Shown: positions 12,766 to 45,820 of the stretch, piece after piece | Layout of the letters: each line of letters starts with the position of its first letter | Position numbering within the stretch: position 1 is the stretch's first letter | Virus record (IMG/VR): IMGVR_UViG_3300011114_000297 | Location: 1 to 51,617 of that record | Length of the DNA: 51,617 bases | Direction: 5' to 3' (one strand) | Origin: a virus | Program-made: the position numbers and the translations under genes | Notes under the pieces: model-generated | Told to the model about the DNA's origin: nothing | Database searches by the model: none | The model's input: the letters and a program-made list of their open reading frames with translations, nothing else

Positions 12766-15700
12766 ATGACACTCCAAACTGCTACCAATCCTGATACTGG
12801 TGAACGCTTTGCGTTGGTTGACAACGAGTGGGTTCCTTTTTCTAAAACGGCAAGCAATCCCGATACAGGGGAAAAGTTTGGACTAATAAAAAATCAATGG
12901 ATGGCTTTACCAGTAAAAGCCGCGCCTGCCTCCCCCGTTGACCAAATCCCCGGGCAGTCTGTTAAAGCGCCACCTCCCAAACCAGAAACGGATATGAACC
13001 CTGTCTTGCGGGGTATCACTAACCATCCGGGTTCAACTGAAGGCTTGATTGGTTCAGCACAAGCGCTTTATGGTATTGGGCTGCATAAAGTAGGTCTTGA
13101 AGAAGCTGGTAAAGGCCAAATAGAACGCGGCCTGAGCAAGATGAAAGAAGGTGAATCCCGCACTGTTTCTAAAGCAACGGATGAGTTAACTGAAGCGTGG
13201 AATAAAGGTATCTGGACTGTTGCTACAGAATACTTGCCTTACCAACTTGGCGTAGGTTTGGCTAATTTAGGCGAATCTCTTGCATTCTCTGGGCTGGGCG
13301 CGCTTGCAGGTACGGCTTTGGAACCCGGTGGCGGCACTGCTGCGGGAGCTGCGGTAGGATTCTTTTCTGACAATATGGTCAAGCTTGGTATTAAACAAGC
13401 AGCAAAAGAAGTCCTTGAAAAAGAAGCCGCTAAAGCTGTAGCAGAAGGCGCTACACGTGCAGAAGCAAAGCAAATTGGTAAAGATGCAGCCACCAAGTTT
13501 GTTGTAGATGAAACTGCAAAAGTAATTGCCAAAACAGGTGGTAAAGGGGTCTTTGAAGAAGGCGCAAAAGCCTATGGTAAAGAAGGCGCGAAACAACTTG
13601 GTTCTTATGCAGGTACTGCTACGCAAGCAGTGGCGCATGGCTTTGGTGAAGTTGGTCAACGTGCGCTTGAAGAAGGCGAAAAGCGCGGTGAAAAACCAGA
13701 AGATATGGATTTCAGTCGTGTATTGCCCGCTGTTGCCGTACATGCTGTAGCTAACTTTATCAATGAACGTGTCGGACTTGGCGCGTTGAAGATTGGCGAA
13801 AAAGCTGCTGAAGGTTTACTTGCTGAAATTGCTAAACGTATTGGTATCACAGGCTTAAAAGAAATGGGCGGTGAAGAAATTCAAACGCTTGCTGAACGCT
13901 TTGGTGCAAAGCTTTCTCTTGCTGATGCTGATGCTTTGAAAGACTATATCAATACGGCTGGTGCATCGTTTGGTATGGCAATTGGCCCCGGCGCTATTGG
14001 TGGGGCGCGTACTCACTTTGCAGGTAAGCGGGCAGAAGCAGCTGCATCTGCGGCAGGCCAAGACCTAAGAAACCAATTCACCACGGCGGGAGGAGACCCA
14101 CAAGCAAATGCGCCCCAGCCAGAAGCGCATCACTTGGCTTTGATTGCGCCTGCTACAGATGCAAAAGGTAATCCACTAGTAGGTGGCACAGCCACGCCTG
14201 CTCCTGCGGCTACAACTCCTGCGGCTACAACTCCTGCGGCTACAACTCCTGCGGCTACAACTCCTGCGGCTACAACTCCTGCGGCTGCTCCTACGGCTAC
14301 CCCTGTGGCTGATCCAATAGTCAAGGCGCAAGCGTATCTGGATGAATTGAGTGCAGATCAAAACAAAAAACCAAACGCATCAAAGCTGAAGGGCTTGGTC
14401 AAAGAACTTGGTATTGACGTGCCTGCTGGCGAAGGATTCAACACCCGTGCAGTTGAGGCTATTAAAACGCATTTGGGGCAGACGACTACAAGTACGGAGG
14501 CCGTACCTGATTTTGTTGTTAGCTACGACCAAGAGGCTACGCAAAAAGAAATTAACAAAATAAATGTAATACTTGATGCAGCACTTAAAGACCCAACACT
14601 TATTAGTTTAGAACAACTTAAGGTATTAGAAAAACGCCTTGATGAATTGTCAAGTAGGCAGCCAAAACAAGAAACACTTGCTGCTTTACGAACCTCAGAA
14701 ATTACAACTCAGGGAGCAACAGTTGGAGCTGACACTACAACAAGTGGAACAAGTACTACTGTGGCTACACCAGCCATTACTACAGACAATGCCCCAAAAC
14801 CTCCGGTCAATACCGCCGGAACTGTGGGAGGAGCTGGAGCAGCTGTATCTACAGGTACTGTGGGAGCGAAGACTCAACTCTCTTCACTAAGCCAAGAGAC
14901 TCAAGACGAAATCAATCGCCGCCGTGATGAAGTGCAGACATTGATCGAGGATGGCAAGCCTTCCAAGCTTATCCAAAACAAGTTGGGCTTCCTCAACAAG
15001 ATGGAAGATACACATGGCGTGGAGCGTTTTGTTCCTACGTCAGATGGTCTACCCGCAAAGAAACCAAGTTATGTTTCTGTCCGAAGTTTGATTGACCGAG
15101 GTATGCAAGCCGCTGCATCGTTCATCAATCGCACCCCTGCTTATGAAGGCAAGGATCTTGAAGGTGCAATGAAGCTGGCTGACCAGTACGATGCGCAAAC
15201 GGAAAAAGAACGCCAAGAAGCTCTTGAAAAACCTAAAGCAGCAAAAACTAAAAACATCAAGGTTTCAGATGAAATCATTGAAGAGTACAACGCCACACGT
15301 GAAGAAGTAAATAAAAGGGCGGACGAAGATGACAGCAAGCGAAAGCAGCTTGCAGATAACTTAGACAAACTTCATGAAGAACGTAAAGCGGCTGAAGCTA
15401 AGCTTGAAAATGAAAACCTCAACGATCCTGCCAATGAAGCCCATATTAAATACTTAGACGAGCAAATTGTTGCGGCTGAAGCGGAATTGCAAAAACATGG
15501 TGGTAAGAGAAGTAAGCTCCCTAACTGGAACAAAGAGATTACCGCAGCTGAAAAAGAAGTTTATCTTGAGCATATTTTTGACAACACTGTCGAGGAACAC
15601 AATCAAGCTGCTAAGGCGTTGATCGAGCATAGACGTGAACAAGGAGCTAAGAGCCGTGAGGGTGAAGGTTCACTTGATCGTACAGAACAGCGCCTTGCAA

Positions 15701-18700
15701 AGATCTATGACGATAACCGCAAAGCTACCGGCAAATTCTTTGGGTTTGAATTTCCAACATGGGATAAGTTGTCTCCCCCTGCAAAAGCAGTTTATCTGCG
15801 TGAACTGGCGGGTAAGGCGTTGACCGGACACCAGCAAGACAATGCGTTTGCGCAGTTGGCAAAACACCTTATCAGTAAAAATGCAGAGTTGTCCGAGGCG
15901 CGTAAAGCTGAGGAAAACAAACGTATTGAAGAACGTAAGAAGGTTATTCAAGAGCGTTCAAGGGAAGAAGAAAAACGCAACAAAGAACGCTTGGCAAAGT
16001 ATGAGCGTCAATCCCTTGGTGCGGCAAGAACTTCAGAGTTTGTTCCAAATAATGTTGTTCAGGCAGTTAAAAACAATGACCTAGCTGGAGTCCTCAACGG
16101 GATCGTATCTGCGCTGGACAAGACGCTTGCCCCGCACCGCAGGATCTATAAACAAATTGCAAACTTGACGGCGAAGCTTGGGTTGAAAACAAAGATTCAA
16201 CTGGTCGATAGCTTGCCAGAAGGTGACTTGGCGATCTATGACTCTGTAACTGACACGATCAAGGTCACATCAGAAGGCCTGACCTATACGACTATTCTTC
16301 ACGAAGTAATCCACGCCGCCAGCGTACGCGTGTTGAACCATTACATGGAAGGCCGCAAGAATCTGTTGACTGAGTCTCAGATCAAAGCAGCGGAACATAT
16401 TCTGAAGATCATGCGGGAAACACAAGAAGCACTGGGCGAATACCACCCAGATGCCTATACAAACCCATATGAATTCTTGGCCTATTCATTGACCGACAAA
16501 ACATTGCAAGCTGACTTGCATGAGCAAGGGATTGAGTATGGCTTGTATTCTTTCTTGGGCCAGCAACGCGAAGACATCATCAGCATCATGCCGGACAAAA
16601 AGTCTGCATGGTCAGAATTCAAAAAAGCGATTGCAGGTATCGTTGGTTACAAACCCGGGCAGTTGAAGTCATTCAACTTTGTACTGGAACTGAACGCTGC
16701 ATTTGAAGATGTTCTGTCTGTGCCTACTGAGCCAATCTACCTCAACACGTCGTTGCCTGCAAAGACAATACCGACCGGCAAAAGCAAAAAGAATATCAAT
16801 AAAGGGGATATGGATGACCCCAAGACGCGAGAAGCGTATGCGCACAGTGAGAGAGAAGATCCAGAGTCATGGGTAAAGAAAATCAAACGTAACCTGTTTA
16901 CTGTTCAGGGTGCGCGGAATCTAGCTAAGCTTGCTGTTGATAAAACTTACCCATTGAGAAGCTGGGAGCTTCGGCATGAGCTTGGAAATTTGATCCACTA
17001 CTCTGGTGACCAATTCAATGCCATATCTTCTGCTCTGGACTTGTCTACGGGTGAAAAAGCTCAATTCATCACGCATTACTTGGATCAACCATTGACTGAG
17101 TTGAAAGCCGCTTTTGGTGCTTGGACAAACGATTTCAGCAAATCGTTCAAGGACGCGACGATTGACTTCCATATGTACGCTGAGGCTTTTACAGAAACAG
17201 AACGTCGTAAAGCCTTGTGGGTTATGTCCGTGCCTTTTAGTACAGACAATACAGGGCCAAAAGCTATCATTGAGAATGGTAAAAAAATCAGTGCCGCAGA
17301 ACGTCGTACACATATTGTTGGCGATAAAAGCAAAGGCATACCCGGACTGATTGACCAAGTAGCTTTATCTCCTGCACAAACAGAACAGCTGTGGAATGAG
17401 TTGACGTACCTTGCCGAAAACTATGCGGATGTAGCGGGATACTCACCCCGCGACATCAAGATCGACACCAAAAAACCAAATGCGCAAGATCACCTAAAGA
17501 TGTGGAGCGACTACTACACTGCGGTTGGTCTGGATAAAGATGCTGTCAAATCACGCATGGATCATTTCAATGCAAGGACGAATGCTGAAAAAGCGGCGAT
17601 CCTGCGCATATTTACGGCTGCAAAATCTCTTGCTGATGCTACAAAAGAACTTAACAAGATAGGTAACTACTGGTCATTCCCTGTGACGAACATCACAGAC
17701 ATGTACAACTACCAATACTACATGCCGTTTAAAGGCTTGTCGAAGTCTGAAACAGAAGACATGATTGACCCCAATACGGTGGGCAACGGTAAAGCTGTGC
17801 AAGAGATGGAACACGAAGCAATGGGTCGTTTTAGTATTGCAAATGATCCTTTGGCGCAGTTGATGCAGGATGCCTATAAAGGCGCAAACCGTGCAGCTAT
17901 ACGTAACTACACGTTGGCAATTAAAAATGCTCTACCAAAAAGCAAAGAAAATCCCAATGGAACTGGCATCCTAGATGGGCAAATAAAAGCGCACATACCT
18001 TATGCGGAAAGACAATCTGCCAAGTTAGAACAATACAAAGGTGGCCCGTACATCTTCCACTACAACTCCGACGGTTCAATTGATGTACTGGAGATAAGCC
18101 CGAAAGATGGGATGTTGGAGGCCATACGTTATTCGTTTAGAAAACCAAACCCTCTTCTTGATGCTATGAATAGTATCGTCGGGTGGATTGGAGCGAACCA
18201 CACACGATTTAACTACGACTTTGCCCCGAAGAACTTTGTCACTGACACAATGACCAACGCTTGGAACATGGGCGGTGGCATGATGGGGCCGTTGGCTGCG
18301 CCAAAGTATCTTGGAATGGTAGCGGGCAAAGTACTCACCAACGGGCTTGGTAAAGCATATCAAGTTGCGCTGTACCACACAGAAGGCGACCTAGGCAGTC
18401 AACAAGTCATGCTTAACATGGCTAAAGAAGATCCTTTCATGCGCGACATGATGGAAATGATTAAGGTCGGCGGCAAAACTGTTTACATTGATAGCATGTC
18501 GTTGAAAGCTAATATCCAGACGCTTAAAAATCTAAATCCGCATTGGGTTATTACCAAGTGGGAACAGTTCCAAGCGTTGGTGGATACATGGTCAACTATG
18601 TTTGAATTGACCAGCCGCACGGCTGCGTATCAGATGTTCAAGGATTACTACCTCCAACAGAATCTTAAAAAAGGATTATCTAAAGATGATGCGTTGCAAG

Positions 18701-20004
18701 CTGCGATTGTAAAAGCTGCTGCTGATACAAAGAACCTGACAAACTTTGAAAAAGTTGGAGAGTATGGAAGAGCGCTTGGCGGTTTATATATGTTCATACG
18801 CCCTTCTGCTATCAGTGCAGCCCGTGCGATTGAAACTGCTGGCCCTGCACTTGCCACAGAATCATCAATGATAAGTCGTATGCCTAAGGCGGTTATAGAA
18901 AACCAAGCAGCTAGAGACGCATACATGGAGAAATTTAAGACTCTAAGAACAAACTCACAGATCATGGTGGGGACTTTGACAGCAATGGGTTCAGCCGTGT
19001 TCTACATGCTCTCTATGATGGCCCCAGATGATGACTGGGGGCGTAACGCTGTCAAGACAGATGATATGAGTAGGTGGACTCGCAATGCGCGTTTCCATGT
19101 GCCAGATAATTGGGGTTGGAGCAAAGAGAAAGATCTCATAATCAATATACCTTGGGGCTTTGGTCTTGGCGCGTTCCCTGCGATCGGGGCACAGCTTGCA
19201 TCTATGCTTGGCGGCTACCAATCGTTTAAAGATGGTATAGGTAATATCATGGGGTCAATTTTGACTGACTCTTTCTTGCCTATTCCTATTTCACGTATTC
19301 CAATTACTGAACACCCTGTAAATTGGTTTTTTGATTCAATTGCGCCGTCTATTGTTCGTCCGGGTTTTGAATACGCAATGAACATGAATGGTATTGGGCA
19401 AACTATTAATAGTGCACAGCAACGTAAATTCGGTGCGGCCTATACTGGTGGGGATAAAGTACCGTCGATCTATAAAGACTTCTCTGAGTGGTTGTATAAA
19501 TACACAGAAGGTAAGCAAGATATTCCACCAAATACAATTTATTTCTTGGTGAATAGCTATGTAGACGGTTGGGCTAAATTTGCTCAGCTTCTATATAACT
19601 GGAATGATCTTGCAACTGGGTCAAAAGAATTCCATGCCAAAACTGACATGCCTGTAATCGGTGGATTCTTTGGATCAAAATCAAACGTAGATGCCCGTGA
19701 GTATGGGGAGCTGGAGAAGAAAATCATTGACTTAGATAAGCGGTTTAAAACACTTAGAAAAGTGGATATGGAAGCTTATATGAGACTCAAAGAAAAGAAT
19801 CCGATGGCTGAAAGTGCAATGCCAATATATAACCAACAAAAAAGTAGGTTAGATAAACTACATGCACGGGCAAATGAAATACGTGACAACCAATCTTTTA
19901 CACGTAAAGAAAAAGAAGAATTACTTAAATTCAACATTACTCAACAGAATATGTTGAAGCATGAGATGGTTGAACGGTTCAAGCTTTACGGTATTGACGA
20001 TTAA
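12766..20004 (+). CDS. Giant polyvalent virion protein with zincin motif and LPD38-like region, 2412 aa
   Basis: The start has two copies of an NPDTGE-F-L-N-W motif (residues about 7-20 and 29-43). Further on come Gly/Ala-rich possible membrane-inserting segments (about 165-210), a TAATP tandem repeat near 480-505, and long charged helices. The metalloprotease motif HEVIHAAS is at 1179-1186. A region with RFNYDFAPKNFVTDTMTNAW (about 1810-1830) resembles large polyvalent protein domain LPD38, and a hydrophobic segment lies near 2070-2085. Such giants are packaged and ejected with DNA, like T7 gp16. Peptidoglycan or host-protein cleavage is inferred from HExxH only. Confidence 0.8.
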   Translation: MTLQTATNPDTGERFALVDNEWVPFSKTASNPDTGEKFGLIKNQWMALPVKAAPASPVDQIPGQSVKAPPPKPETDMNPVLRGITNHPGSTEGLIGSAQALYGIGLHKVGLEEAGKGQIERGLSKMKEGESRTVSKATDELTEAWNKGIWTVATEYLPYQLGVGLANLGESLAFSGLGALAGTALEPGGGTAAGAAVGFFSDNMVKLGIKQAAKEVLEKEAAKAVAEGATRAEAKQIGKDAATKFVVDETAKVIAKTGGKGVFEEGAKAYGKEGAKQLGSYAGTATQAVAHGFGEVGQRALEEGEKRGEKPEDMDFSRVLPAVAVHAVANFINERVGLGALKIGEKAAEGLLAEIAKRIGITGLKEMGGEEIQTLAERFGAKLSLADADALKDYINTAGASFGMAIGPGAIGGARTHFAGKRAEAAASAAGQDLRNQFTTAGGDPQANAPQPEAHHLALIAPATDAKGNPLVGGTATPAPAATTPAATTPAATTPAATTPAATTPAAAPTATPVADPIVKAQAYLDELSADQNKKPNASKLKGLVKELGIDVPAGEGFNTRAVEAIKTHLGQTTTSTEAVPDFVVSYDQEATQKEINKINVILDAALKDPTLISLEQLKVLEKRLDELSSRQPKQETLAALRTSEITTQGATVGADTTTSGTSTTVATPAITTDNAPKPPVNTAGTVGGAGAAVSTGTVGAKTQLSSLSQETQDEINRRRDEVQTLIEDGKPSKLIQNKLGFLNKMEDTHGVERFVPTSDGLPAKKPSYVSVRSLIDRGMQAAASFINRTPAYEGKDLEGAMKLADQYDAQTEKERQEALEKPKAAKTKNIKVSDEIIEEYNATREEVNKRADEDDSKRKQLADNLDKLHEERKAAEAKLENENLNDPANEAHIKYLDEQIVAAEAELQKHGGKRSKLPNWNKEITAAEKEVYLEHIFDNTVEEHNQAAKALIEHRREQGAKSREGEGSLDRTEQRLAKIYDDNRKATGKFFGFEFPTWDKLSPPAKAVYLRELAGKALTGHQQDNAFAQLAKHLISKNAELSEARKAEENKRIEERKKVIQERSREEEKRNKERLAKYERQSLGAARTSEFVPNNVVQAVKNNDLAGVLNGIVSALDKTLAPHRRIYKQIANLTAKLGLKTKIQLVDSLPEGDLAIYDSVTDTIKVTSEGLTYTTILHEVIHAASVRVLNHYMEGRKNLLTESQIKAAEHILKIMRETQEALGEYHPDAYTNPYEFLAYSLTDKTLQADLHEQGIEYGLYSFLGQQREDIISIMPDKKSAWSEFKKAIAGIVGYKPGQLKSFNFVLELNAAFEDVLSVPTEPIYLNTSLPAKTIPTGKSKKNINKGDMDDPKTREAYAHSEREDPESWVKKIKRNLFTVQGARNLAKLAVDKTYPLRSWELRHELGNLIHYSGDQFNAISSALDLSTGEKAQFITHYLDQPLTELKAAFGAWTNDFSKSFKDATIDFHMYAEAFTETERRKALWVMSVPFSTDNTGPKAIIENGKKISAAERRTHIVGDKSKGIPGLIDQVALSPAQTEQLWNELTYLAENYADVAGYSPRDIKIDTKKPNAQDHLKMWSDYYTAVGLDKDAVKSRMDHFNARTNAEKAAILRIFTAAKSLADATKELNKIGNYWSFPVTNITDMYNYQYYMPFKGLSKSETEDMIDPNTVGNGKAVQEMEHEAMGRFSIANDPLAQLMQDAYKGANRAAIRNYTLAIKNALPKSKENPNGTGILDGQIKAHIPYAERQSAKLEQYKGGPYIFHYNSDGSIDVLEISPKDGMLEAIRYSFRKPNPLLDAMNSIVGWIGANHTRFNYDFAPKNFVTDTMTNAWNMGGGMMGPLAAPKYLGMVAGKVLTNGLGKAYQVALYHTEGDLGSQQVMLNMAKEDPFMRDMMEMIKVGGKTVYIDSMSLKANIQTLKNLNPHWVITKWEQFQALVDTWSTMFELTSRTAAYQMFKDYYLQQNLKKGLSKDDALQAAIVKAAADTKNLTNFEKVGEYGRALGGLYMFIRPSAISAARAIETAGPALATESSMISRMPKAVIENQAARDAYMEKFKTLRTNSQIMVGTLTAMGSAVFYMLSMMAPDDDWGRNAVKTDDMSRWTRNARFHVPDNWGWSKEKDLIINIPWGFGLGAFPAIGAQLASMLGGYQSFKDGIGNIMGSILTDSFLPIPISRIPITEHPVNWFFDSIAPSIVRPGFEYAMNMNGIGQTINSAQQRKFGAAYTGGDKVPSIYKDFSEWLYKYTEGKQDIPPNTIYFLVNSYVDGWAKFAQLLYNWNDLATGSKEFHAKTDMPVIGGFFGSKSNVDAREYGELEKKIIDLDKRFKTLRKVDMEAYMRLKEKNPMAESAMPIYNQQKSRLDKLHARANEIRDNQSFTRKEKEELLKFNITQQNMLKHEMVERFKLYGIDD
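14206..14280 (+). repeat. Five exact 15-nt tandem repeats inside the giant virion gene
   Basis: The unit GCGGCTACAACTCCT is repeated five times without change, flanked by degenerate copies on both sides. It encodes the pentapeptide AATTP repeated in frame. Exactness suggests recent slippage expansion; it forms a flexible low-complexity linker between helical regions. Confidence 0.95.
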
Positions 20005-31648: not shown

Positions 31649-32116
31649 TCAAGCCTGTGCTTTGTTGATCTCTCTGTTGAGATACCACTGAGCCTTCTGC
31701 AAGTCTTGCAGTCGATCGCCCTTGTGATCTGATCGTGTGATGTACTTCACCACGTTGCCAAGGTTATAGCCAAGATTCTTTGCCTCGATGAAGTCGATGG
31801 TCTCGATGCCACCTGTCTTGTAATGCTCGGGGTGATTCACTGGGTCAGCCTTCGGTTCTTCCATCTCGATCGGGAAGTGTGTCTCTACGATACTTGGAAC
31901 TTTATCTAACGACCCAGTGTCGGCTGGGGTCTTAATTACGCTGAACGTGCCGTCTATGTTTCTGTAAATCCCCAATGCTTTCCTCTGGGTGTTTAACAGC
32001 ACATGGGCTTGCTGTGTCGAACAGTCGAGCAACTCGACTACTGCCCCTGCTTTGGTGTTCGGGTTTCTGCGCAACAGCATTCTTACTTTTGCGGCCTTGT
32101 TGATTCTCTTAGTCAT
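31649..32116 (-). CDS. DUF3310-domain protein with N-terminal HTH-like part, 155 aa
   Basis: The C-terminal 65 residues carry the DUF3310 pattern: VNHPEHYKTGGIETIDFIEA, LGYNLGNVVKYITRSDHKGD and LQDLQKAQWYLNREI. The N-terminal 55 residues resemble a winged-helix DNA-binding unit. DUF3310 proteins are widespread in phages and sometimes called nucleotide kinase-like, without firm evidence. Codons near 31911-31931 contain a read-through copy of the CCCAG hairpin element. The gene ends just before a strong terminator. Confidence 0.82.
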   Translation of the reverse strand: MTKRINKAAKVRMLLRRNPNTKAGAVVELLDCSTQQAHVLLNTQRKALGIYRNIDGTFSVIKTPADTGSLDKVPSIVETHFPIEMEEPKADPVNHPEHYKTGGIETIDFIEAKNLGYNLGNVVKYITRSDHKGDRLQDLQKAQWYLNREINKAQA

Positions 32117-37709: not shown

Positions 37710-38828
37710 TTAGAATAATTCGTGATTGTTCTTAGCCCACTCAGCGATCTTGGCATTGTTACGAGCAAGACGCACTGCCTTGGGACTACGCATCATCATG
37801 GTGAAGAACACTGCTTGCACTTCGCTTGAGTCGATACGACCGACGAACTCCATGAACGATGTCAACTCGTCTTGCGTCGCCAATGTATCTACTGCTTGAA
37901 ACATAATCATCAACTGCGCTGATATGTCTCTCGGCATAGTCACACTCAACGGGTTCTTCACGATGTCCTTGACATCTGTCAATGATTTCTCTAACGACAT
38001 GAATGCCGCCATGTCCCCCGCCGCTGACGCACCGATCGTGCCCGACAGTGCAACCATAGTTGCGTTCTCGCCTATCGCATCACGATGCTTCACGATCACA
38101 TCGCACTTCGCCAACGAACGAGGGGAACAGAACGACAACGCACCTGAGCTTGGCTTGAAGATGTATGGATTATCTTTCTGCATATCGCCCTCTGTATACG
38201 ATGCCATGACCCTCGGGAACATCGCCACGAACGCACGAACAACACGTGAGACACCATTAGCTGTTGCCCACTGCAACCACTCATCAGCTGTGGGCTTAGC
38301 CATACGCACAATACATACACGATTCGCCGCATGAGCAAGCATCGAGTCACCCACGCCATCGCTTGCATTGTTAGATGTTGCAATGATTTGTGACCCAGTA
38401 GGCAGTGGGTCGTCACCTAACATTCTCTCCAACATCAGGCGGGTATAGATGATCTGCATCAACTTGGGAGACTTCATCAACTCGTCGAGCAAGATGACCT
38501 TGGGCTTGTGGCTTTTGGTATTGAACAACTCAGCAACGTAGTACTCCAACTGCTTGGTCACGTGGTTGGGGATAGTCATACCTATGTCGGACATATCTTT
38601 GACCGGACAGTCAACATAGATGTAGTCGTACTTGTCACCCTCAATGCCTGTGCCATCCTTGGGACTGCGCCACTTGTCACCATTGTCAGCCGCCATCATG
38701 GATAACAGGGAGGTCTTGCCACACCCGGGCTCAGACTGTACGACCACTGTCAGATCTGAAGCTATTAGCGGAATCATTTTCCGTAGTTCGTTGATGGTCA
38801 CGGTATTCACGAAAGAAACTTTGCTCAT
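37710..38828 (-). CDS. MoxR/CobS-like AAA+ ATPase, 372 aa
   Basis: Walker A is SEPGCGKTS (32-40), Walker B VILLDELMKS (111-120), and sensor 1 is IIATSNNASDG, the normal order for MoxR-type AAA+ proteins. The PLPTGS codons just before sensor 1 contain a CCCAG hairpin copy (38392-38411). It pairs by proximity with the VWA protein and the DUF3150 protein, as in other MoxR-VWA systems, and probably powers their assembly or substrate remodelling. The AAGGAG ribosome site is 7 bases before ATG. Confidence 0.85.
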   Translation of the reverse strand: MSKVSFVNTVTINELRKMIPLIASDLTVVVQSEPGCGKTSLLSMMAADNGDKWRSPKDGTGIEGDKYDYIYVDCPVKDMSDIGMTIPNHVTKQLEYYVAELFNTKSHKPKVILLDELMKSPKLMQIIYTRLMLERMLGDDPLPTGSQIIATSNNASDGVGDSMLAHAANRVCIVRMAKPTADEWLQWATANGVSRVVRAFVAMFPRVMASYTEGDMQKDNPYIFKPSSGALSFCSPRSLAKCDVIVKHRDAIGENATMVALSGTIGASAAGDMAAFMSLEKSLTDVKDIVKNPLSVTMPRDISAQLMIMFQAVDTLATQDELTSFMEFVGRIDSSEVQAVFFTMMMRSPKAVRLARNNAKIAEWAKNNHELF

Positions 38829-38855: not shown

Positions 38856-38996
38856 ACACACTGAAAAGAACTGAATGGGTGAGGGGTGAGGTTGGGATTT
38901 CTACAACCAACTCCGCTTCGGGTTAACCTGCGAACCCCATTGTTGGTCAGGTAACGGACACCCCTCATAAACTTACACACACTGAAAAGAACTGAA
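38856..38996 (-). repeat. 20-bp direct repeats around a 101-bp structured insert at a gene end
   Basis: The 20-mer beginning ACACACTGAAAAG occurs at 38856-38875 and 38977-38996. Both copies, read on the minus strand, encode FSSFQCV and a stop. Between them is non-coding DNA whose ends carry an 8-bp inverted repeat (GAGGGGTG 38881-38888, CACCCCTC 38959-38966) and smaller internal hairpins. It looks like an insertion that duplicated the gene's 3' end. Confidence 0.8.
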
Positions 38997-39893
38997 CTTA
39001 CTGAGGATGCTGTCAACATCCTCTTTGACTGCCGTTCGCACAGCGTCACTCTCCCTAATGCCCTTGGCATCCACGTCTGCCAATGCTCTCTCAAGCGATG
39101 CTCTGGCTAACTCGAGATCTGGATCGGCGCTTAGGTTGAAACCCTTGAACGTCTCGCACATCTCCAACGCTTTCTGAATTGTGGTGTCGTAGATCTTGCG
39201 CTTACGAATCTTGGTCTCCCCTGTGTTGTCGTCAACGCCCAACTCGTCGTAGCCACAGCAATGACTGATCGACTGCATGACCTCGATGAACCTTGTTTTC
39301 TGAGCCAGCACCACCTCGGTCACTATGTTCTCGGCTTGCCGTGAATATGTCTCAAACAAGTCATCAGCGATGTCCGACGCAATGCCACAGCGGAAATCAC
39401 TCATAGGCACTTCGCTCACATACAAATGCACACCGAACTTCGCTTGCAACTCATCGACCGCAGGGTAGTCGCTTCGATTAAACATATCTCCAGCCTTGAA
39501 CGCCATGTCGGACACGATCGAACTGTATGACGCAATGAAATCATCAACCAACTTGTCGAATGTCGCTTGATGCTCGCCGAACTCTTGCTTGAACTTCGGC
39601 ACATCAATGCTTGGTAACAAGTCGTTCGCATCATTCCAGCGATACGTCCTGCGCTTCGTCCAGTTATAGATTGTTTGGCGATAGTTGACGATCGCCTTGT
39701 GCTTGGGATGATCTGCCAACAGATTCTTCACGTACTTGCCCGCGTTGCGATTGGCTCGCTTTGAGTCAGCAACATCATTGCTGATGCCCCTGTCCTGTTT
39801 CGTTGCCGACCACACGTGGGTGTCGATGGATACCAACACCGCAGACGATGCCAAGCTTATGAGATGCTTTGGCTTTTGCAATTCCATGTTCAT
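38973..39893 (-). CDS. DUF3150-like protein, 306 aa
   Basis: A helical protein with LVSIDTHVWSATKQDRGIS near the N terminus, matching the DUF3150 style (LxxLDVxxWSG...), then long helices and FETYSRQAENIVTEVVLAQK. DUF3150 proteins recur next to AAA+ and VWA genes in phages, which agrees with the next gene being MoxR. The ribosome site AGGAG is seven bases before ATG. Its last seven codons are duplicated downstream. Biochemical role unknown. Confidence 0.72.
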   Translation of the reverse strand: MNMELQKPKHLISLASSAVLVSIDTHVWSATKQDRGISNDVADSKRANRNAGKYVKNLLADHPKHKAIVNYRQTIYNWTKRRTYRWNDANDLLPSIDVPKFKQEFGEHQATFDKLVDDFIASYSSIVSDMAFKAGDMFNRSDYPAVDELQAKFGVHLYVSEVPMSDFRCGIASDIADDLFETYSRQAENIVTEVVLAQKTRFIEVMQSISHCCGYDELGVDDNTGETKIRKRKIYDTTIQKALEMCETFKGFNLSADPDLELARASLERALADVDAKGIRESDAVRTAVKEDVDSILSKFSSFQCV

Positions 39894-39914: not shown

Positions 39915-39933
39915 AACCCAGCGATTGCTGGCC
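39915..39933 (-). repeat. CCCAG hairpin element before the DUF3150-like gene
   Basis: CCAGC and GCTGG pair around a 4-nt loop at 39918-39931, with AACAA before and CTCTTACTT after on the plus strand. It lies in the leader between the promoter at 39978-40006 and the start codon at 39893. Confidence 0.8.
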
Positions 39934-39977
39934 TCTTACTTACCAACCGAGACAGATTGCTTCCCGACTCAGTTATA

Positions 39978-40006
39978 AGTATAACACAACTTGACATATA
40001 CGTCAA
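39978..40006 (-). promoter_or_regulatory. Early sigma-70-like promoter 2 with palindromic operator
   Basis: On the minus strand the -35 is TTGACG, the spacer is 17 nt and the -10 is TATACT. The palindrome TTGACATATACGTCAA (39991-40006) covers the -35 box. It is nearly identical to the promoter at 42652-42680. It would drive the long early operon that starts with the DUF3150-like gene. Confidence 0.85.
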
Positions 40007-40046
40007 CCCCTTTACGCAAAATAGTTGTTGGCGTGATGCCAGTTAT

Positions 40047-40466
40047 TTACCAATCTCGCTCGATCGAACGGCTCATGTCCAACCAATCAAGGTCGTAGCT
40101 ACCGCCCTCCTTATGCTCGATGTCGTCATACTCTTCACCGATGCGCAGGAACATATAGGCGATCTCTGAATGGTTGTCCTCATCGTTCGCCCACTCGTCG
40201 GCAAGCTCGATCAACGCATCGTGGCATTTCACATCGGGGTAGTCGGTGTACCACTTCACATTGTCAGCAGAGAAATTAATTCGGTATCGTCCCTCGTCCA
40301 CGATGAACCCATTGCCCCCACTCCAGTTCTTTTGTTCCTCACTGAAACATGGGGCGGTAGCTGCCCTAGCCTTAGCTTCAGCTATGAATGTATAAAACGA
40401 TTGCTTGGCTCGCTCGTCATCAGTCGTGAACCTGATGGTGTATGCCACTTCTGATCTATATCCCAT
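40047..40466 (-). CDS. Hypothetical protein, 139 aa
   Basis: The start MGYRSEVAYTIRFTTDDERA at 40466 has AAGGAG seven bases upstream; the longer frame is rejected. The beta-alpha start and a tail with EEYDDIEHKEGGSYDLDWLD suggest a small alpha/beta protein. It is the last gene of the first early operon. The 16-bp sequence TAAATAACTGGCATCA begins at its stop codon. Confidence 0.68.
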   Translation of the reverse strand: MGYRSEVAYTIRFTTDDERAKQSFYTFIAEAKARAATAPCFSEEQKNWSGGNGFIVDEGRYRINFSADNVKWYTDYPDVKCHDALIELADEWANDEDNHSEIAYMFLRIGEEYDDIEHKEGGSYDLDWLDMSRSIERDW

Positions 40467-40470
40467 TGCT

Positions 40471-40866
40471 TTACTCCTTCTCATGTGTTGTTGAATCTTC
40501 TTCGCTTGCGCTATCGTGCGCTCGGGTCTTATCCACAGTTGTTTCACCTATGTCTCCTATCGCCTTGGCTAAAAGAATCATCAAGTCCTCGTCGGTCTGA
40601 TACCCATGTGGCTCGTCCTCATCGTCGGACATCACCTCGTATGGGGCATCTATCCGTGAATAGAACAACTGACCACAGACCACGCTCACCCCTTTCCCAT
40701 TCGGGAACTTGTACTTGGCGTAGAAGTGACCGCCTAGCTTTTTTTCAAACCTACCGCTAGGATGCCGCCCACTATCAACTATGAATTCATCGTATGGCAG
40801 GGCGGGTCTGTCCCTGTCGATCGGCAGAAAGACTGCCTCCATGTGGCTCATGTCATCTCGTCTCAT
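40471..40866 (-). CDS. Hypothetical acidic protein, 131 aa
   Basis: A beta-rich centre (GGHFYAKYKFPNGKGVSVVC) and an acidic disordered C terminus (DDEDEPHGYQTDEDLM; ASEEDSTTHEKE). It overlaps the stop of the gene upstream by one base and ends 4 bp before the next gene. No family is recognised. Confidence 0.65.
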   Translation of the reverse strand: MRRDDMSHMEAVFLPIDRDRPALPYDEFIVDSGRHPSGRFEKKLGGHFYAKYKFPNGKGVSVVCGQLFYSRIDAPYEVMSDDEDEPHGYQTDEDLMILLAKAIGDIGETTVDKTRAHDSASEEDSTTHEKE

Positions 40867-41093
40867 CAGATCACCCTCCCCAATTTCTCCAACACATACT
40901 CACGCATCAAGGCATACGCCTCGTCCTTGCGCCCCTCCCTGTCGTGTAACCATATCTTGGTCAACGTCTCGGTCTCGTCAAAGCTCACGCCTTGCGTACC
41001 TCGTTCTTTCAACTCCTCGACCAAGTCCTCGGTGTCGAACTCGCTCAAGTCCACGTCTACCTCGACCTCTGTGTAAATTGTTTTGGTACTCAT
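40866..41093 (-). CDS. Small acidic protein, 75 aa
   Basis: Starts MSTKTIYTEVEVDVDLSEFD and continues TEDLVEELKERG, with a helical C terminus. It resembles small phage proteins of the VDVDL-(D/E)F type whose role is unknown. It is linked by an ATGA overlap to the zinc-ribbon gene upstream. Confidence 0.68.
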   Translation of the reverse strand: MSTKTIYTEVEVDVDLSEFDTEDLVEELKERGTQGVSFDETETLTKIWLHDREGRKDEAYALMREYVLEKLGRVI

Positions 41094-41308
41094 CTGTGAA
41101 ACCCTCCTTTGTTGTTGATACCTTTCAAGTCAGCCATGTCAGTCAGCATCACGTAGTTGCTCTTGTGCATCGGCACGACAGTGCGCACGACTTGCTGTGC
41201 CACCTTGTCCCCGCATGGCAGACAGAACTTGTAACCAAGACCCCAGCGTTGTCTGGAGTACTGATCGCCGCAGTTGCGGCACTGTGGTGTGTGGTTCTCA
41301 TGGCTCAT
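41090..41308 (-). CDS. Zinc-ribbon protein, 72 aa
   Basis: Two knuckles CRNCGDQYS and CLPCGDKVA, 18 residues apart, form a likely zinc ribbon; the C terminus is a short helical tail. Small ribbons of this type may bind nucleic acid or host proteins. ATGA overlaps join it to both neighbours. Confidence 0.72.
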   Translation of the reverse strand: MSHENHTPQCRNCGDQYSRQRWGLGYKFCLPCGDKVAQQVVRTVVPMHKSNYVMLTDMADLKGINNKGGFHR

Positions 41309-41484
41309 AACTTCATCTCCTTTTGTTTCACCAAGACCTCGTACCCCAACACTTGTATGCGCTGGATGTCTCGGGGCAGTAGCGTGGTTGTCCCTGCGAT
41401 GTCGGCAAAGATCTTTGCCTTGTCACACACTGGGTAGATCTTGGACTGACCATAGACCTCCCTTATCTCGACTGTGATATTCAT
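41305..41484 (-). CDS. Small hypothetical protein, 59 aa
   Basis: The product begins MNITVEIREVYGQSKIYPVC and ends with a basic KQKEMKL tail. It overlaps the previous gene's stop (TAATG) and the next start (ATGA), so it is translated in series. No domain is recognised. Confidence 0.7.
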   Translation of the reverse strand: MNITVEIREVYGQSKIYPVCDKAKIFADIAGTTTLLPRDIQRIQVLGYEVLVKQKEMKL

Positions 41485-41663
41485 TACTCATCCTTCCATG
41501 TCATGACCATCTGCAACACACCCTCGGGTGCGGTCTCAACCACCTTGTCGTACTGTCCCCATGCCTGACACGCAGGGCACTCGGCATCATGCTCGGGGCA
41601 ACGCTCGCCCCAATAGAACAACATCGCTTCGTGTATTGCATTGCGCTCAGAATGCTTGTCCAT
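41484..41663 (-). CDS. Small Cys/His-containing protein, 59 aa
   Basis: The product begins MDKHSERNAIHEAMLFYWGE and contains CPEHDAECPAC, a likely zinc-binding cluster. A strong AAGGAGGTGAACA ribosome region precedes ATG. It overlaps the upstream gene by 17 nt and the downstream start by one base. Function unknown. Confidence 0.72.
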   Translation of the reverse strand: MDKHSERNAIHEAMLFYWGERCPEHDAECPACQAWGQYDKVVETAPEGVLQMVMTWKDE

Positions 41664-41829
41664 TGTTCACCTCCTTCTCTTGAAGCCAATAGTGAAACCC
41701 ACGCCCCTCGTCAGCTTCCTCCATGTGGCGTAAGACTTTCTCTGCCATTACCTTATGGGCAAACACATCCTCAATCCAAGGTCTCTGTGTGTCACTGCCC
41801 CACAATATCCAAACTAATCTCATGTTCAT
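41647..41829 (-). CDS. Small hypothetical protein, 60 aa
   Basis: Begins MNMRLVWILWGSDTQRPWIE and continues as a charged helix (HKVMAEKVLRHMEEADEG). The start overlaps the upstream stop as ATGA. It resembles small proteins that read an amphipathic strand then helix; no family is named. Confidence 0.65.
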   Translation of the reverse strand: MNMRLVWILWGSDTQRPWIEDVFAHKVMAEKVLRHMEEADEGRGFHYWLQEKEVNNGQAF

Positions 41830-42191
41830 TCCCCTGTGTAAGTCGATTGGTCGTGCATGATCTCAACAACGTAGTAGTCGTCGGGTGTCTCGGTGTAAAA
41901 CTCTCCCTCGGTGCAGACCCAGCACTCGTAGAACGCCAACGCCCTGTCCATGTATGAGCGATAGGGGAAACCATTCTTCATCAGCAGATAAACCTTTATC
42001 TCAGGCTTAACACTAATCACCGGCAGGCTCACCTCATGAGCTTGCAGTTCGTCGAGTATGCAATGTATGGCTTGAAGTTCTTCTGGTGTTGGCTTGAAGT
42101 TCTCCATGAGGACTCGCAACTCGTCGTCGTTGGGGCAGTCTTGATCTGCACGATATGCCATCTCGATGGCAATGTCTTTGAAACGTCCCAT
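41826..42191 (-). CDS. Hypothetical protein, 121 aa
   Basis: The start MGRFKDIAIEMAYRADQDCP at 42191 has AAGGAG six bases upstream; the longer frame runs through the hairpin element and is rejected. It has two parts, a helical N-terminal half and a beta-rich C-terminal half with FYECWVCTEGEFYTETPDDY. No known domain is recognised. Confidence 0.68.
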   Translation of the reverse strand: MGRFKDIAIEMAYRADQDCPNDDELRVLMENFKPTPEELQAIHCILDELQAHEVSLPVISVKPEIKVYLLMKNGFPYRSYMDRALAFYECWVCTEGEFYTETPDDYYVVEIMHDQSTYTGE

Positions 42192-42212
42192 AAAATTCTC
42201 CTTGGTGATAGA

Positions 42213-42238
42213 TAGCAACCCAGACATGGCTGGGCCGC
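42213..42238 (-). repeat. CCCAG hairpin element between early genes
   Basis: CCCAG and CTGGG pair at 42219-42234, flanked by GATAGCAA and CCGCTGATTGA on the plus strand. It lies between the 42259-42552 and 41826-42191 genes, just upstream of the latter's ribosome site. Confidence 0.85.
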
Positions 42239-42258
42239 TGATTGAAACAACTGTGTGA

Positions 42259-42552
42259 TTAAAGAATGTCGTAGCCAGTGCAGAACTGGAACAACTCAAC
42301 GTCGGACATGGACTCGGTAATGGTCAAGCCCTCATGCTCGTCGTCAATGTCTTGGAACTCGTCGAAGTCGTGACCTCTGTCCAAGAACTCTAAATTCTGA
42401 TTGAAATACGCATCGGCACGCATTGCATCACGACGCATGGTCTCGGTGAGATCTGTCTGCGCATGGTTGTAAACAGTGCGTGGCTTGTGCAAGCGGATGA
42501 TGGGGCGTGTTACCGATTGGGGCAACACAGGGGCAACGAAATACATTCTCAT
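42259..42552 (-). CDS. First gene of the early operon, hypothetical, 97 aa
   Basis: The product starts MRMYFVAPVLPQSVTRPIIR and has an acidic C-terminal half (DRGHDFDEFQDIDDEHEG). It is the first gene after the strong early promoter and a CCCAG hairpin, with AGGAG six bases before ATG, so it should be made very early. A host-takeover role would fit an acidic first product but is only inferred. Confidence 0.68.
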   Translation of the reverse strand: MRMYFVAPVLPQSVTRPIIRLHKPRTVYNHAQTDLTETMRRDAMRADAYFNQNLEFLDRGHDFDEFQDIDDEHEGLTITESMSDVELFQFCTGYDIL

Positions 42553-42587
42553 GACTATCTCCTAAATGGTCAACAACTTGAAATAAC

Positions 42588-42607
42588 AACCCAGCAACTA
42601 CTGGGTC
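42588..42607 (-). repeat. CCCAG hairpin element in the leader of the early operon
   Basis: CCCAG (42590-42594) and CTGGG (42601-42605) with an AACAA/TCACTGATTA context on the plus strand. It is in the untranslated leader between promoter 1 and the start at 42552. Confidence 0.85.
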
Positions 42608-42651
42608 ACTGATTAGAGTCGGTTAAGCTTTTCTTCCCCGACCCAATTCAT

Positions 42652-42680
42652 AGTATAGCACAACTTGACATATAGGTCAA
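42652..42680 (-). promoter_or_regulatory. Early sigma-70-like promoter 1 with palindromic operator
   Basis: On the minus strand the -35 is TTGACC, the spacer is 17 nt and the -10 is TATACT. The palindrome TTGACATATAGGTCAA (42665-42680) covers the -35 box. The transcript should start near 42645 and run into the gene at 42552. The flanking AACTATTTT upstream and GTCGGG leader downstream are also shared with promoter 2. Confidence 0.87.
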
Positions 42681-42711
42681 GTGTTTATATAAAATAGTTA
42701 ATCCAGCGGTT

Positions 42712-43083
42712 TGTTCTACGTGTTCTAGGTTTGTTCTATTTTCCTATGTAAAGTTAGAACAAAAATGGGTATTACTTGAAGCGGGTTTTGTGCTGTTTCT
42801 GTAAGGGGAAGTATTATTATTTTATAAAATAAATAGATAGATATGAAACTTGTTCTAATGTTCTACTGTTTTTAGAGGGGATACGGTTTTATTTCGATTT
42901 TTTCCGATGCGAGTTTGCACTCAGCAGGTAAGTCTTGATCTTGCAAAAATCTTCAAAAATAAGACCCCTATGCTCAAAATCGTAGAACATTAGAACAAAA
43001 AAAAATTCTTCAATGCTGACAAGGGGTTACAAGCGTTTTTCTGTTCTACTCGACCTCATTTGTTCTACTCTTTTTTTAGAACA
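42712..43083. repeat. Array of eleven TGTTCTA/TAGAACA heptamers, candidate origin or control region
   Basis: Exact copies start at 42712, 42721, 42732, 42851, 42859, 43042 and 43061 on the plus strand and at 42755, 42983, 42991 and 43077 on the minus strand. The stretch is A/T-rich with no gene. Chance would give well under one copy. The gap 42553-43344 holds no other open frame that looks real. Confidence 0.85.
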
Positions 43084-43206
43084 TGTATAGTTAGCTCGGA
43101 GAAAACACTGTTTTACATCAGCTAAGTTTCTCAGAAAATAACTTTGTAGGTTTGTGGTGGCATCGCTAAAGTTTATAAGAACTGATGGACAAGGATTCTA
43201 ACTAGC

Positions 43207-43226: not shown

Positions 43227-43264
43227 CTTAAATAAGTTTCTTGTGCCATGCTACCCGATCGACT

Positions 43265-43299
43265 CGCGCGCGAGGAAATATAACTGGTTTCAAATAGGC
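43265..43299 (-). repeat. GAAATATAACTGG element, copy 1
   Basis: CGCGCGAGGAAATATAACTG with following GTTTCAAA. It stands next to a terminator and is repeated at 44119-44156 and 45091-45122. No clear -10/-35 pair explains it. Confidence 0.85.
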
Positions 43300-43300
43300 A

Positions 43301-43336
43301 AAAAAAATCCCGCATGGCGTGAACCATGCGGGATTT
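43301..43336 (-). terminator. Rho-independent terminator after paralogue 1
   Basis: AAATCCCGCATGG and CCATGCGGGATTT pair around a 6-nt loop and are followed on the minus strand by T-rich sequence. It lies 8 bp after the stop of the gene at 43345. Confidence 0.9.
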
Positions 43337-43344
43337 AATCTAAC

Positions 43345-43950
43345 TTAGGGTTTCCACTTAGCTAGGAAAGCAATGATTGCTTCATTCAACCTTGCTTCAT
43401 CAGCCGTGGCATCGCCTCGCCGTTTAGAGTTTTTGCACTTATCTTTCATTGCTGGGATGACACCCTTTTTAGGGTCAGTCAGCCATTCAGCAAAATCTAG
43501 ATTGGGAGCCCGTGGCGTAGGATTATCTTTCTTAAGGATATCCCTAGCTTTGCCCTTAAGGTCAGACAATGCGCCCTGACAATAGTCATTGATGCTGCTT
43601 CTGATCGGTTGCATCAGTGCATACATTGCTGGCTGAGACAATTTCAGTTTGCCAAACTCTTGCTGGGTGTAGCTGAAAATGTGGTGCATTCCAATTTCAA
43701 CCTTTTCAACCTTTTTATTTTTAACCATGTCAGCCGTGGCTTCGACATAATTCCCGTCGATCACCGCATACAGTTTTGCGGGATGTGTTGCATCCCAGCG
43801 TTGACGATACCCAGTGTAGAGCGCCGCTCTAGCTTCATCAGAGACATTCTCAGGAAAGCCCACAATCCGATCTATTGCAAATCGTGCGTGAGATGTAAGT
43901 GCATCACCAGTACCAGCCTGAGCAAAGCCCAATTCGATTAAGTCTTTCAT
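43345..43950 (-). CDS. Early protein of a tandem paralogue pair, 201 aa
   Basis: The sequence matches the gene at 44205 along its length: IVGFPENVSDEARAALYTGY, IDGNYVEA, SYTQQEFGKL, PAMYALMQP, RAPNLDFAEW and KRRGDATADEARLNEAI all have counterparts. It is about 34 residues shorter at the N terminus. Predicted soluble alpha/beta with a basic C-terminal part. It has its own leader and terminator. Function unknown; an early DNA-binding or host-takeover role is possible. Confidence 0.72.
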   Translation of the reverse strand: MKDLIELGFAQAGTGDALTSHARFAIDRIVGFPENVSDEARAALYTGYRQRWDATHPAKLYAVIDGNYVEATADMVKNKKVEKVEIGMHHIFSYTQQEFGKLKLSQPAMYALMQPIRSSINDYCQGALSDLKGKARDILKKDNPTPRAPNLDFAEWLTDPKKGVIPAMKDKCKNSKRRGDATADEARLNEAIIAFLAKWKP

Positions 43951-43996: not shown

Positions 43997-44050
43997 GTAA
44001 AACCATATTAGCTGATGCGGCGGTATAAGTAAAGTTTTGTGGAGGGAAAT
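43997..44050 (-). promoter_or_regulatory. Conserved promoter-like leader module upstream of paralogue 1
   Basis: On the minus strand the module begins TTTCCCTCCACAAAACTTTA. TTTACT, 17 nt and TAATAT make the best -35/-10 pair. It aligns with modules before the genes at 44912 and 45572. Confidence 0.6.
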
Positions 44051-44084: not shown

Positions 44085-44118
44085 TAAATAATGTTTTTGC
44101 TCACGCACTCACTCTCCA

Positions 44119-44156
44119 CGCGCGCGAGGAAATATAACTGGTATCAAAGTCAAGGC
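44119..44156 (-). repeat. GAAATATAACTGG element, copy 2
   Basis: CGCGCGAGGAAATATAACTG with following GTATCAAAG; 27 of 28 core bases match copy 1. It lies just after the terminator of paralogue 2. Confidence 0.85.
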
Positions 44157-44157
44157 G

Positions 44158-44192
44158 AAAAAAAAACCCTGCAAGGCTAACCTTGCAGGGTT
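44158..44192 (-). terminator. Rho-independent terminator after paralogue 2
   Basis: AACCCTGCAAGG and CCTTGCAGGGTT pair around a 4-nt loop, followed on the minus strand by nine T residues. It is 12 bp after the stop at 44205. Confidence 0.9.
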
Positions 44193-44204: not shown

Positions 44205-44912
44205 TTAACCGATCAATACAGCCTTAAATGCGACGATCGCTTTATCAAGCTTTTCGGGGTCAGCGGTCTTGTCACCGCGTTTTTTTGCAGTCTTGCATCG
44301 TACCCGCATAGTCTCTAATACGCCAAGGGTTTCAAGCTTGCCGTTGACTGTTTCTTTACGATCGACCCAGTCGATAAAGTCTAGGTTCGGTGCGCGTTCG
44401 GTTGCACCTGCCTGTTTCTTTATGATTTTGCGTGCCCGACTTTTCAGATTACCTAAACAGCCCGACATAAAGTCGTTAACAGGTTCGCGCCAAGATTTCA
44501 AGACCGCGTACTTTGCAGGGTCTGTAGATCTAAGCTTGCCGTATTCCTGTTGAGAATACGAGTAGACAACGTCTACACCGATAACGACTTTTTCTTTTAC
44601 CTTGTCTTGCATATCTTTATCAAGACTATCAAGTAACAGATAATTGCCGTCTACGATGCCGTAAGTAACAGGCGCGTGCTTGTCGTTATAGCGCATCATG
44701 TAACCCTTGTACAATTTAGCCTTAGAGTCGTCGTCGATCTTTTCGGGAAAACCGTCGATTGAACTAATAGCGTATTTCGCTTGGTTGTCTGAGGCATCCT
44801 CAGTCTTGCCCTGTTGATAACCAAGGTCTATTAACGATAATATCGGGGCATCCAAAGCGATGGACAAGGGGTTGACCGCGTAAGCGATCGGGGTTTTTTT
44901 GGCTGTTGCCAT
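44205..44912 (-). CDS. Early protein of a tandem paralogue pair, 235 aa
   Basis: Homologous along its length to the gene at 43345 (IDGFPEKIDDDSKAKLYKGY; VDGNYLLL; SYSQQEYGKL; RAPNLDFIDW; KKRGDKTADPEKLDKAI). It has an extra basic N terminus, MATAKKTPIAYAVNPLSIAL. The AGGAG site lies seven bases before ATG. It is a single-gene unit with its own leader and terminator. Function unknown. Confidence 0.72.
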   Translation of the reverse strand: MATAKKTPIAYAVNPLSIALDAPILSLIDLGYQQGKTEDASDNQAKYAISSIDGFPEKIDDDSKAKLYKGYMMRYNDKHAPVTYGIVDGNYLLLDSLDKDMQDKVKEKVVIGVDVVYSYSQQEYGKLRSTDPAKYAVLKSWREPVNDFMSGCLGNLKSRARKIIKKQAGATERAPNLDFIDWVDRKETVNGKLETLGVLETMRVRCKTAKKRGDKTADPEKLDKAIVAFKAVLIG

Positions 44913-45052: not shown

Positions 45053-45090
45053 ACTATTTAGCGATCTTGCCCGCACACGCACGCCACACA

Positions 45091-45122
45091 CGCGCGACGA
45101 AATATAACTGGCATCAATAGGC
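45091..45122 (-). repeat. GAAATATAACTGG element, copy 3
   Basis: CGCGCGACGAAATATAACTG followed by GCATCAATAGG. It lies next to the third stem-loop terminator, as copies 1 and 2 do. Confidence 0.85.
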
Positions 45123-45126
45123 CAAA

Positions 45127-45149
45127 AGAAAGGGAGCCGAAGCTCCCTT
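45127..45149 (-). terminator. Terminator-like stem-loop after the 53-residue gene
   Basis: AAGGGAGC and GCTCCCTT pair around a 4-nt loop, followed on the minus strand by TCTTTT. It is 3 bp after the stop at 45153. The T-tract is shorter than in the other two units. Confidence 0.72.
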
Positions 45150-45703: not shown

Positions 45704-45820
45704 AATTAAAATGAGCCTCTCCCACGCCCCCATACCCTCTGAACAACACAAATAACCACATATTTTTCAAAAATCCAACCAACTAATATGTCAAGTTAAG
45801 AAATGGCGACTTTCCGCTGC

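Follow-up and report, generated by a model that had tools for sequence, protein, structure and literature searches.

In Cluster A mycobacteriophages (L5, Bxb1, and TipsytheTRex), one repressor acts on short asymmetric sites at early promoters and elsewhere, according to the available parts of the reports (PMC9283540, PMC6550527). In this study, an asymmetric 11-bp site, TATGT(C/A)AAGTT, called the half-site, was analyzed in IMG/VR virus record IMGVR_UViG_3300011114_000297, a single record of 51,617 bases whose whole length is called the window. The half-site lies in the spacers of two leftward promoters, P1 and P2, and at other intergenic places. By analogy, the Cluster A operator/stoperator system is the nearest working parallel, since the asymmetric site here also occurs both at early promoters and elsewhere. 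According to the same parts, a Cluster A genome has 20–30 sites, most of them facing the same way, and its helix-turn-helix (HTH) repressor is known. In contrast, 1–6 exact sites each were found in 15 whole viral records, of which the window was one and some may be fragmentary, and the orientation at P1 and P2 was opposite to that at the promoters of a two-copy gene family (family 1). Because of site number and orientation, the system does not belong to the Cluster A type. HTH_3 was found in 3 of the 15 records and integrase in none, with no search aimed at the L5 repressor. The L5 consensus has TGTCAAG in common with the half-site.

The PeSLs of T4-type phages, reportedly described by Arbiol in 2010, are said to be cassettes of an early promoter and a stem-loop that recur before genes. 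These cassettes are mobile and are shuffled between positions. An early promoter followed by a stem-loop is also present here; however, P1 and P2 are at fixed places, although stem-loops additionally occur inside a coding region, and the stem varies between genomes and is common within one. Cluster K mycobacteriophages have SAS and ESAS elements, repeated short sequences and inverted repeats just before the starts of non-structural genes; the SAS is a 13-bp sequence 3–7 bp before start codons (PMC3203893, in the part available). The ESAS is described there as well conserved among Cluster K genomes, whereas the stems here differ between relatives. PeSLs and SAS/ESAS resemble the leader part of the present system.

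Paired promoters and the asymmetric half-site

A preliminary description of the window had reported two early promoters, TTGAC(C/G)-17-TATACT, within a shared sequence of about 50 bp containing the palindrome TTGAC-N6-GTCAA. Both promoters were present on the minus strand. The shared sequence was a 44-nt block with 84% identity (39963–40006 and 42637–42680), and both copies contained the palindrome. The promoters, the half-sites of the window, and the genes behind the promoters were as follows.

42652–42680, minus strand: P1 promoter, ahead of gene A; TTGACC-17-TATACT, TG preceding the -10; aligned in 12 leaders
39978–40006, minus strand: P2 promoter, ahead of gene B; TTGACG-17-TATACT, TG preceding the -10
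42665–42680: TTGAC-N6-GTCAA dyad at P1, made of the -35 hexamer and the inverted spacer half
39991–40006: TTGAC-N6-GTCAA dyad at P2
42662–42672, minus strand: half-site TATGTCAAGTT in the P1 spacer, proposed operator
39988–39998, minus strand: half-site TATGTCAAGTT in the P2 spacer, proposed operator
42745–42755, plus strand: half-site TATGTAAAGTT, 65 bp upstream of P1, adjoining GTTCTA repeats; same context in several relatives
44026–44036, plus strand: half-site TAAGTAAAGTT; the minus strand reads AACTTTACTTA, the -35 of TTTACT-17-TAATAT ahead of gene 43345–43950
45787–45797, plus strand: half-site TATGTCAAGTT, lying 279 bp ahead of gene 46066, the first on the late strand
42259–42552, minus strand: gene A (97 amino acids), first gene behind P1; no family match
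38973–39893, minus strand: gene B (306 amino acids), first gene behind P2; an ATPase (phrog_1297) and a phrog_1314 protein come next

P1 and P2 are ordinary sigma70-type promoters; the shared asymmetric site and its regulon-like spread are new. Promoters of this type have their -35 and -10 hexamers 16–18 nt apart; P1 and P2 both scored 10/12 with a 17-nt spacer and TG before the -10, and they were the only minus-strand sites with these features between 31617 and 51616. The same scan as a whole gave 23 sites against 22.9 in shuffles, and therefore a consensus match by itself says little. The bare palindrome is not rare by itself either, because further copies lie at 38599 and 51409.

Conservation was examined with gene-B homologues that were picked by protein alone, with promoters ignored. 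Of 47 loci, 43 were usable, as their gene B had a true start and no less than 150 bp of sequence before it. All 43 had the element upstream of gene B, between about -110 and -175, with 17 or more of the 26 key positions matching. In the reversed and complemented control, 179 windows reached that score in 4.7 million positions, about 0.008 per locus. A stricter pattern, TTGACN6GTMAAGTTNTGNTATACT, was found in 91 stretches of viral contigs. The element was present in exactly two copies, on the same strand and 1.0–2.9 kb apart, in 54 distinct contigs. Since 43/43 gene-B relatives carry the element and 54 contigs carry it twice, the paired promoters are not due to chance. The full element also occurred in six stretches of the genome_contigs collection. 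Five were in Firmicutes-type metagenome-assembled genome (MAG) contigs with different flanks, and the sixth was phage-like; host-side operators were rejected as a reading. The sixth (L234, 135–163) is a P2-type element with P2-type flanks on a 7.6-kb contig in an actinobacterial MAG, and is probably a mis-binned phage contig.

The dyad was conserved less well than its spacer half. Among the 43 gene-B promoters, TTGAC was present in 23, GTMAAGT in 34, and both arms in 15; among 108 paired promoters, the numbers were 75, 99, and 54. These arm counts indicate that the spacer half is the stable part and that the dyad arises wherever a standard -35 is also present. Judged from sequence, the conserved unit is the asymmetric half TATGT(C/A)AAGTT in the spacer between the -35 and the -10, and not the dyad. 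A repressor had been proposed to bind the palindrome; the palindrome was not borne out as the conserved unit, since TTGAC is the usual -35 and the spacer half persists where TTGAC is lost.

The clade of contigs L048–L059 was mostly without TTGAC, and its P1-type promoters held a pair of half-sites with the same orientation, at a distance of 20 bp. A GTAAA-like word lay 20 bp upstream of the half-site in 27/108 promoters, against 0–3 at neighboring offsets, many of the 27 being related P2 copies. In L006 and L007, both promoters were altered together (TTGTG and GTATA). These two contigs have close relatives of gene A (92 and 81%), and their P1 and P2 lack both arms. Some family-1 promoters of L006, L007, and L020 have TTGACA or TTGACT without the AAC...TA flanks; the three contigs are natural variants for probing co-evolution.

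The two promoters of one contig resembled each other. Spacer differences between P1 and P2 averaged 2.78 within contigs and 4.05 when shuffled between contigs (sd 0.16; 0/5000 shuffles). The corresponding values were 0.39 and 1.40 for TTGAC (0/5000), and 0.44 and 0.67 for GTCAAGTT (0/5000). This likeness fits one shared reader.

On the opposite strand of P1, TTGACA-17-TATAAA (42665–42693, plus strand) is a possible divergent promoter overlapping P1, with no counterpart at P2. A divergent promoter was rejected as the cause of the palindrome: by eye, P2 and most relatives had no -10 on the opposite strand.

Spread of the half-site and the family-1 genes

Five copies of the 11-mer TAWGTMAAGTT were present in the window; 40 dinucleotide shuffles gave 0.125, with a maximum of 1. 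All five exact sites were intergenic: 39988 and 42662 on the minus strand, and 42745, 44026, and 45787 on the plus strand. The 15 viral records together held 42 sites, against 3 for the reversed pattern. The region 42690–43100, next to P1, is AT-rich and non-coding and has 11 of the window's 31 GTTCTA/TAGAAC words in mixed spacing; it is possibly a replication origin or another binding array.

The copy before the late genes was also recovered. The 12-bp partial copy reported earlier, ATATGTCAAGTT, was present at 45786–45797 on the plus strand. A relaxed site lay within 500 bp before the homologue of gene 46066 in 50/66 relatives, the window included. In non-redundant late-side regions, the exact site was found on the plus strand in 27/51 and on the minus strand in 0/51, with 0.03 in shuffles. 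The single copy was too weak to trust alone, and it is now supported because 27/51 regions conserve it.

Two paralogous open reading frames (ORFs) of the window belong to family 1, an early gene family with no named relative, which had 125 members in 83/144 non-redundant loci.

43345–43950, minus strand: family-1 member with the site in its own promoter; candidate target and possible regulator
44205–44912, minus strand: family-1 member with only a diverged site in its own promoter

The exact reverse half-site was found upstream of 83/119 family-1 genes, mostly 60–100 bp before the start, and a 9-of-11 match upstream of 102/119. At these promoters the half-site covers the -35, which was TTTACT in 44, TTTACA in 23, and TTGACT in 1 of 68 distinct contexts. 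At 17 nt, 35/68 contexts had a -10-like hexamer (4/6 or better), against 1–7/68 at 13–16 and 18–21 nt. Family 1 was present in 51/56 element-carrying loci with room for it, and the element was missing from 2/62 family-1 loci with room.

Family 1 could not be assigned to a known regulator: Pfam and PHROG gave only scattered weak matches, and one PDB sequence matched at E 0.15. The AlphaFold2 model of the family had a mean pLDDT of 94.3 and a pTM of 0.71. Foldseek gave no match under E 0.001 (best 1.9 in PDB and 0.55 in BFVD), and the best VIA Z score was 5.1. The predicted fold leaves DNA binding neither supported nor excluded.

A proposed regulator and its alternatives

The pattern of sites suggests host-sigma70 early promoters with an operator for a putative trans-acting regulator, probably a repressor, a reading held with about even confidence. 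P1 and P2 would be the main pair of leftward early promoters in a group of phages relying on host RNA polymerase. Host polymerase use was assumed because the ORFs scanned, which were part of the window's ORFs, matched no RNA polymerase family. Each is a strong sigma70-type promoter that combines a -35 TTGAC, a 17-nt spacer, and an extended -10 TGnTATACT, with the proposed operator inside the spacer. The same operator would cover the -35 of family-1 promoters, with single copies upstream of P1 and near the late-gene start, and a single trans-acting protein would read every site. The early promoters would be active on entry and be shut off when this protein accumulates. The protein would be phage-made, and family 1 is the leading, unproven candidate because its genes hold the site in their own promoters.

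Repression is the most likely mode: in either orientation, the sites occlude promoter DNA, be it the -35 or the spacer. A repressor is also the easiest reading since an activator should have the same geometry at every promoter. The preliminary description had a repressor blocking the -35, and it suggested that one factor might tie late control to the shut-off of early genes; the motif is indeed shared with the late side. The overlap with promoter elements fits repression, but at P1 and P2 the half-site lies in the spacer. An ordinary lysogeny repressor is disfavored by the absence of integrase and by the 3/15 HTH_3 count, in records that may be fragments. CtrA sites (PMC9437464, in the part available) were also considered. 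The CtrA consensus did not fit.

Several points weigh against this reading. No HTH or other DNA-binding protein was found among the window ORFs scanned, and one of the three HTH_3 matches was above the curated cut-off. The exact site was missing upstream of 36/119 family-1 genes, including window gene 44205–44912. The site faces opposite ways relative to transcription at P1/P2 and at the family-1 promoters. The likeness of P1 and P2 was weaker but present in the 20 bp after the -10 (10.22 within contigs against 12.26) and slight in the 20 bp before the -35 (9.91 against 10.75, P 0.0014). Because this likeness reaches the flanks, gene conversion or recombination between the copies may contribute to it. 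It is highly improbable that copying or homogenization is the whole cause, since the functional core showed the strongest likeness and, by eye, the P1 and P2 flanks formed two distinct types across contigs.

The spacer sequence could also be part of a strong promoter favored by host RNA polymerase and kept for its strength, with no dedicated regulator. The fixed distance of the half-site from the extended -10 in P1/P2 fits this explanation, as do the similar spacer-plus--10 strings in the five Firmicutes-type MAG contigs. However, the same 11-mer occurs away from any clear -10 (42745 and 45787) and, reversed, serves as the -35 of other promoters, a pattern that shuffles do not yield. This explanation is possible but doubtful. 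At T4 middle promoters, the phage protein MotA substitutes for the -35. An activator or polymerase-appropriation factor of this kind, recruited by the half-site in place of the -35, would account for the half-site, exact or changed, being kept in clades without TTGAC (L048–L059 and L042/L063), and for the two copies 20 bp apart in L048-type P1 promoters. It is unlikely, given that the orientation differs at family-1 promoters, that on the late side the orientation differs or a -10 is lacking, and that most P1/P2 copies keep a good -35 and need no help. The symmetric dimer operator of the preliminary description, TTGAC-N6-GTCAA at the -35, is very unlikely. Both arms were intact in half of the paired promoters (54/108) and are 11 bp apart, about one helical turn; but one arm is the -35 itself, and the arms were not conserved together as in a lambda-like operator (15/43 gene-B promoters). 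Changes in one arm were also unmatched by the other: TTTAC with GTAAA was absent among 155 relaxed matches, and GTAAA paired with TTGAC in 39/44, so covarying arms were rejected.

Leader stem-loops and genome setting

The leader stem-loops are a separate finding and the more unusual one. Predicted stem-loops followed both promoters, with a mean z of -1.23 in 54 P1 leaders and -0.72 in 53 P2 leaders. Those of the window were as follows.

42616–42644, minus strand: first stem-loop of the P1 leader, GGGTCGG/CCGACTC, predicted fold
42590–42605, minus strand: second stem-loop of the P1 leader, CCCAG/CTGGG, member of a repeated family with compensatory changes
39918–39931, minus strand: stem-loop of the P2 leader, CCAGC/GCTGG, same family as the second P1 stem-loop

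In the 12 aligned leaders, the second P1 stem had two-sided changes at 5/5 pairs, and 91.5% of cells were paired against at most 45.5% in slid alignments; the structure was derived from the same alignment, which favors it. Within 31.9–44.1 kb of the window, exact CCCAG/CTGGG hairpins were present at six positions, and one more lay in a late gene. The CCAG/CTGG stem-loop lay at 31913, 34565, 36654, 39918, 42220, 42591, 43210, and 44066, before several genes, the copy at 36654 being within the phrog_1314 coding gene. Hairpins were also present at the equivalent positions of relatives, where the stem was another one, private to the genome.

The P1 and P2 leaders of a contig had a 5-nt arm in common in 42/54 pairs; permutation gave a mean of 15.1 and a maximum of 25. 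A genome's own arm recurred elsewhere in its locus 1.8 times on average, against 0.35 for arms of other genomes. In 67/82 loci of at least 9 kb, a stem was repeated more than in any of 5 shuffles. Related genomes have stems in common, and these counts are not independent events. The arm of the hairpin within phrog_1314 was the P2 leader arm in 16/52 loci, against 3.1 (maximum 11). The window was a miss in this test: the P2 arm is CCAGC and the in-gene arm CCCAG, which have CCAG in common and not five letters in register. A two-layer control code in a large uncultivated phage group is possible but doubtful; in it, an asymmetric operator common to the early promoters, family 1, and the junction to the late genes would be combined with clade- or genome-private leader stems that are identical at unlinked places, one of them within a coding gene.

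Three copies of another block (43262–43307, 44116–44161, and 45086–45131) have CCAGTTATATTTC on the minus strand, followed by a CGCG-rich stretch. Two of the three are directly downstream of strong terminators, and similar text was seen in leaders of relatives. Rfam gave nothing reaching gathering scores.

The window had no terminal repeat of at least 20 bases at its ends. Plus-strand structural genes extend from 46066 through the window end and again from the window start to 20004. The minus strand holds the replication and early-type genes, which run from about 45.6 kb down to 20 kb. The plus-strand ORF 12766–20004 (2412 amino acids) has an LPD38 domain close to its end, and a 15-bp tandem repeat lies inside it at about 14186–14305. 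ORF 41090–41308 was considered as zinc-ribbon-like and rejected, as all matches were sub-threshold. Judged by the large terminase, which was 48–53% identical, the nearest named genomes were Pelagibacter phages HTVC027P and HTVC023P, phage DSL-LC04, and phage 023Pt_psg01. TAWGTMAAGTT was not found in stretches of HTVC027P (41 kb), DSL-LC04 (34 kb), and 023Pt_psg01 (39 kb), HTVC023P being outside the comparison. Gene B and family 1 had no match among 50,697 phage records. The word "promoter" was absent from the available part of the Pelagiphage paper PMC9599517, and titles and abstracts in the literature, which was partly covered, held nothing on the motif or on genome-private stem-loops.

The promoter pattern is a testable, putative regulatory motif present in about ninety stretches of DNA from uncultivated phages, and it points to an operator with a putative reader; the leader stem-loops brought to light with it vary in concert within a genome. 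If a trans-acting factor can be identified, early and late timing in phages without a recognizable polymerase of their own would become accessible, and a natural set of variants would be available for work on operator–reader co-evolution. If the two-layer code is true, the private stems would imply a co-evolving phage protein or RNA that recognizes the phage's own messages, and such a self-tag could set the phage's transcripts apart from host transcripts and from those of competing phages.

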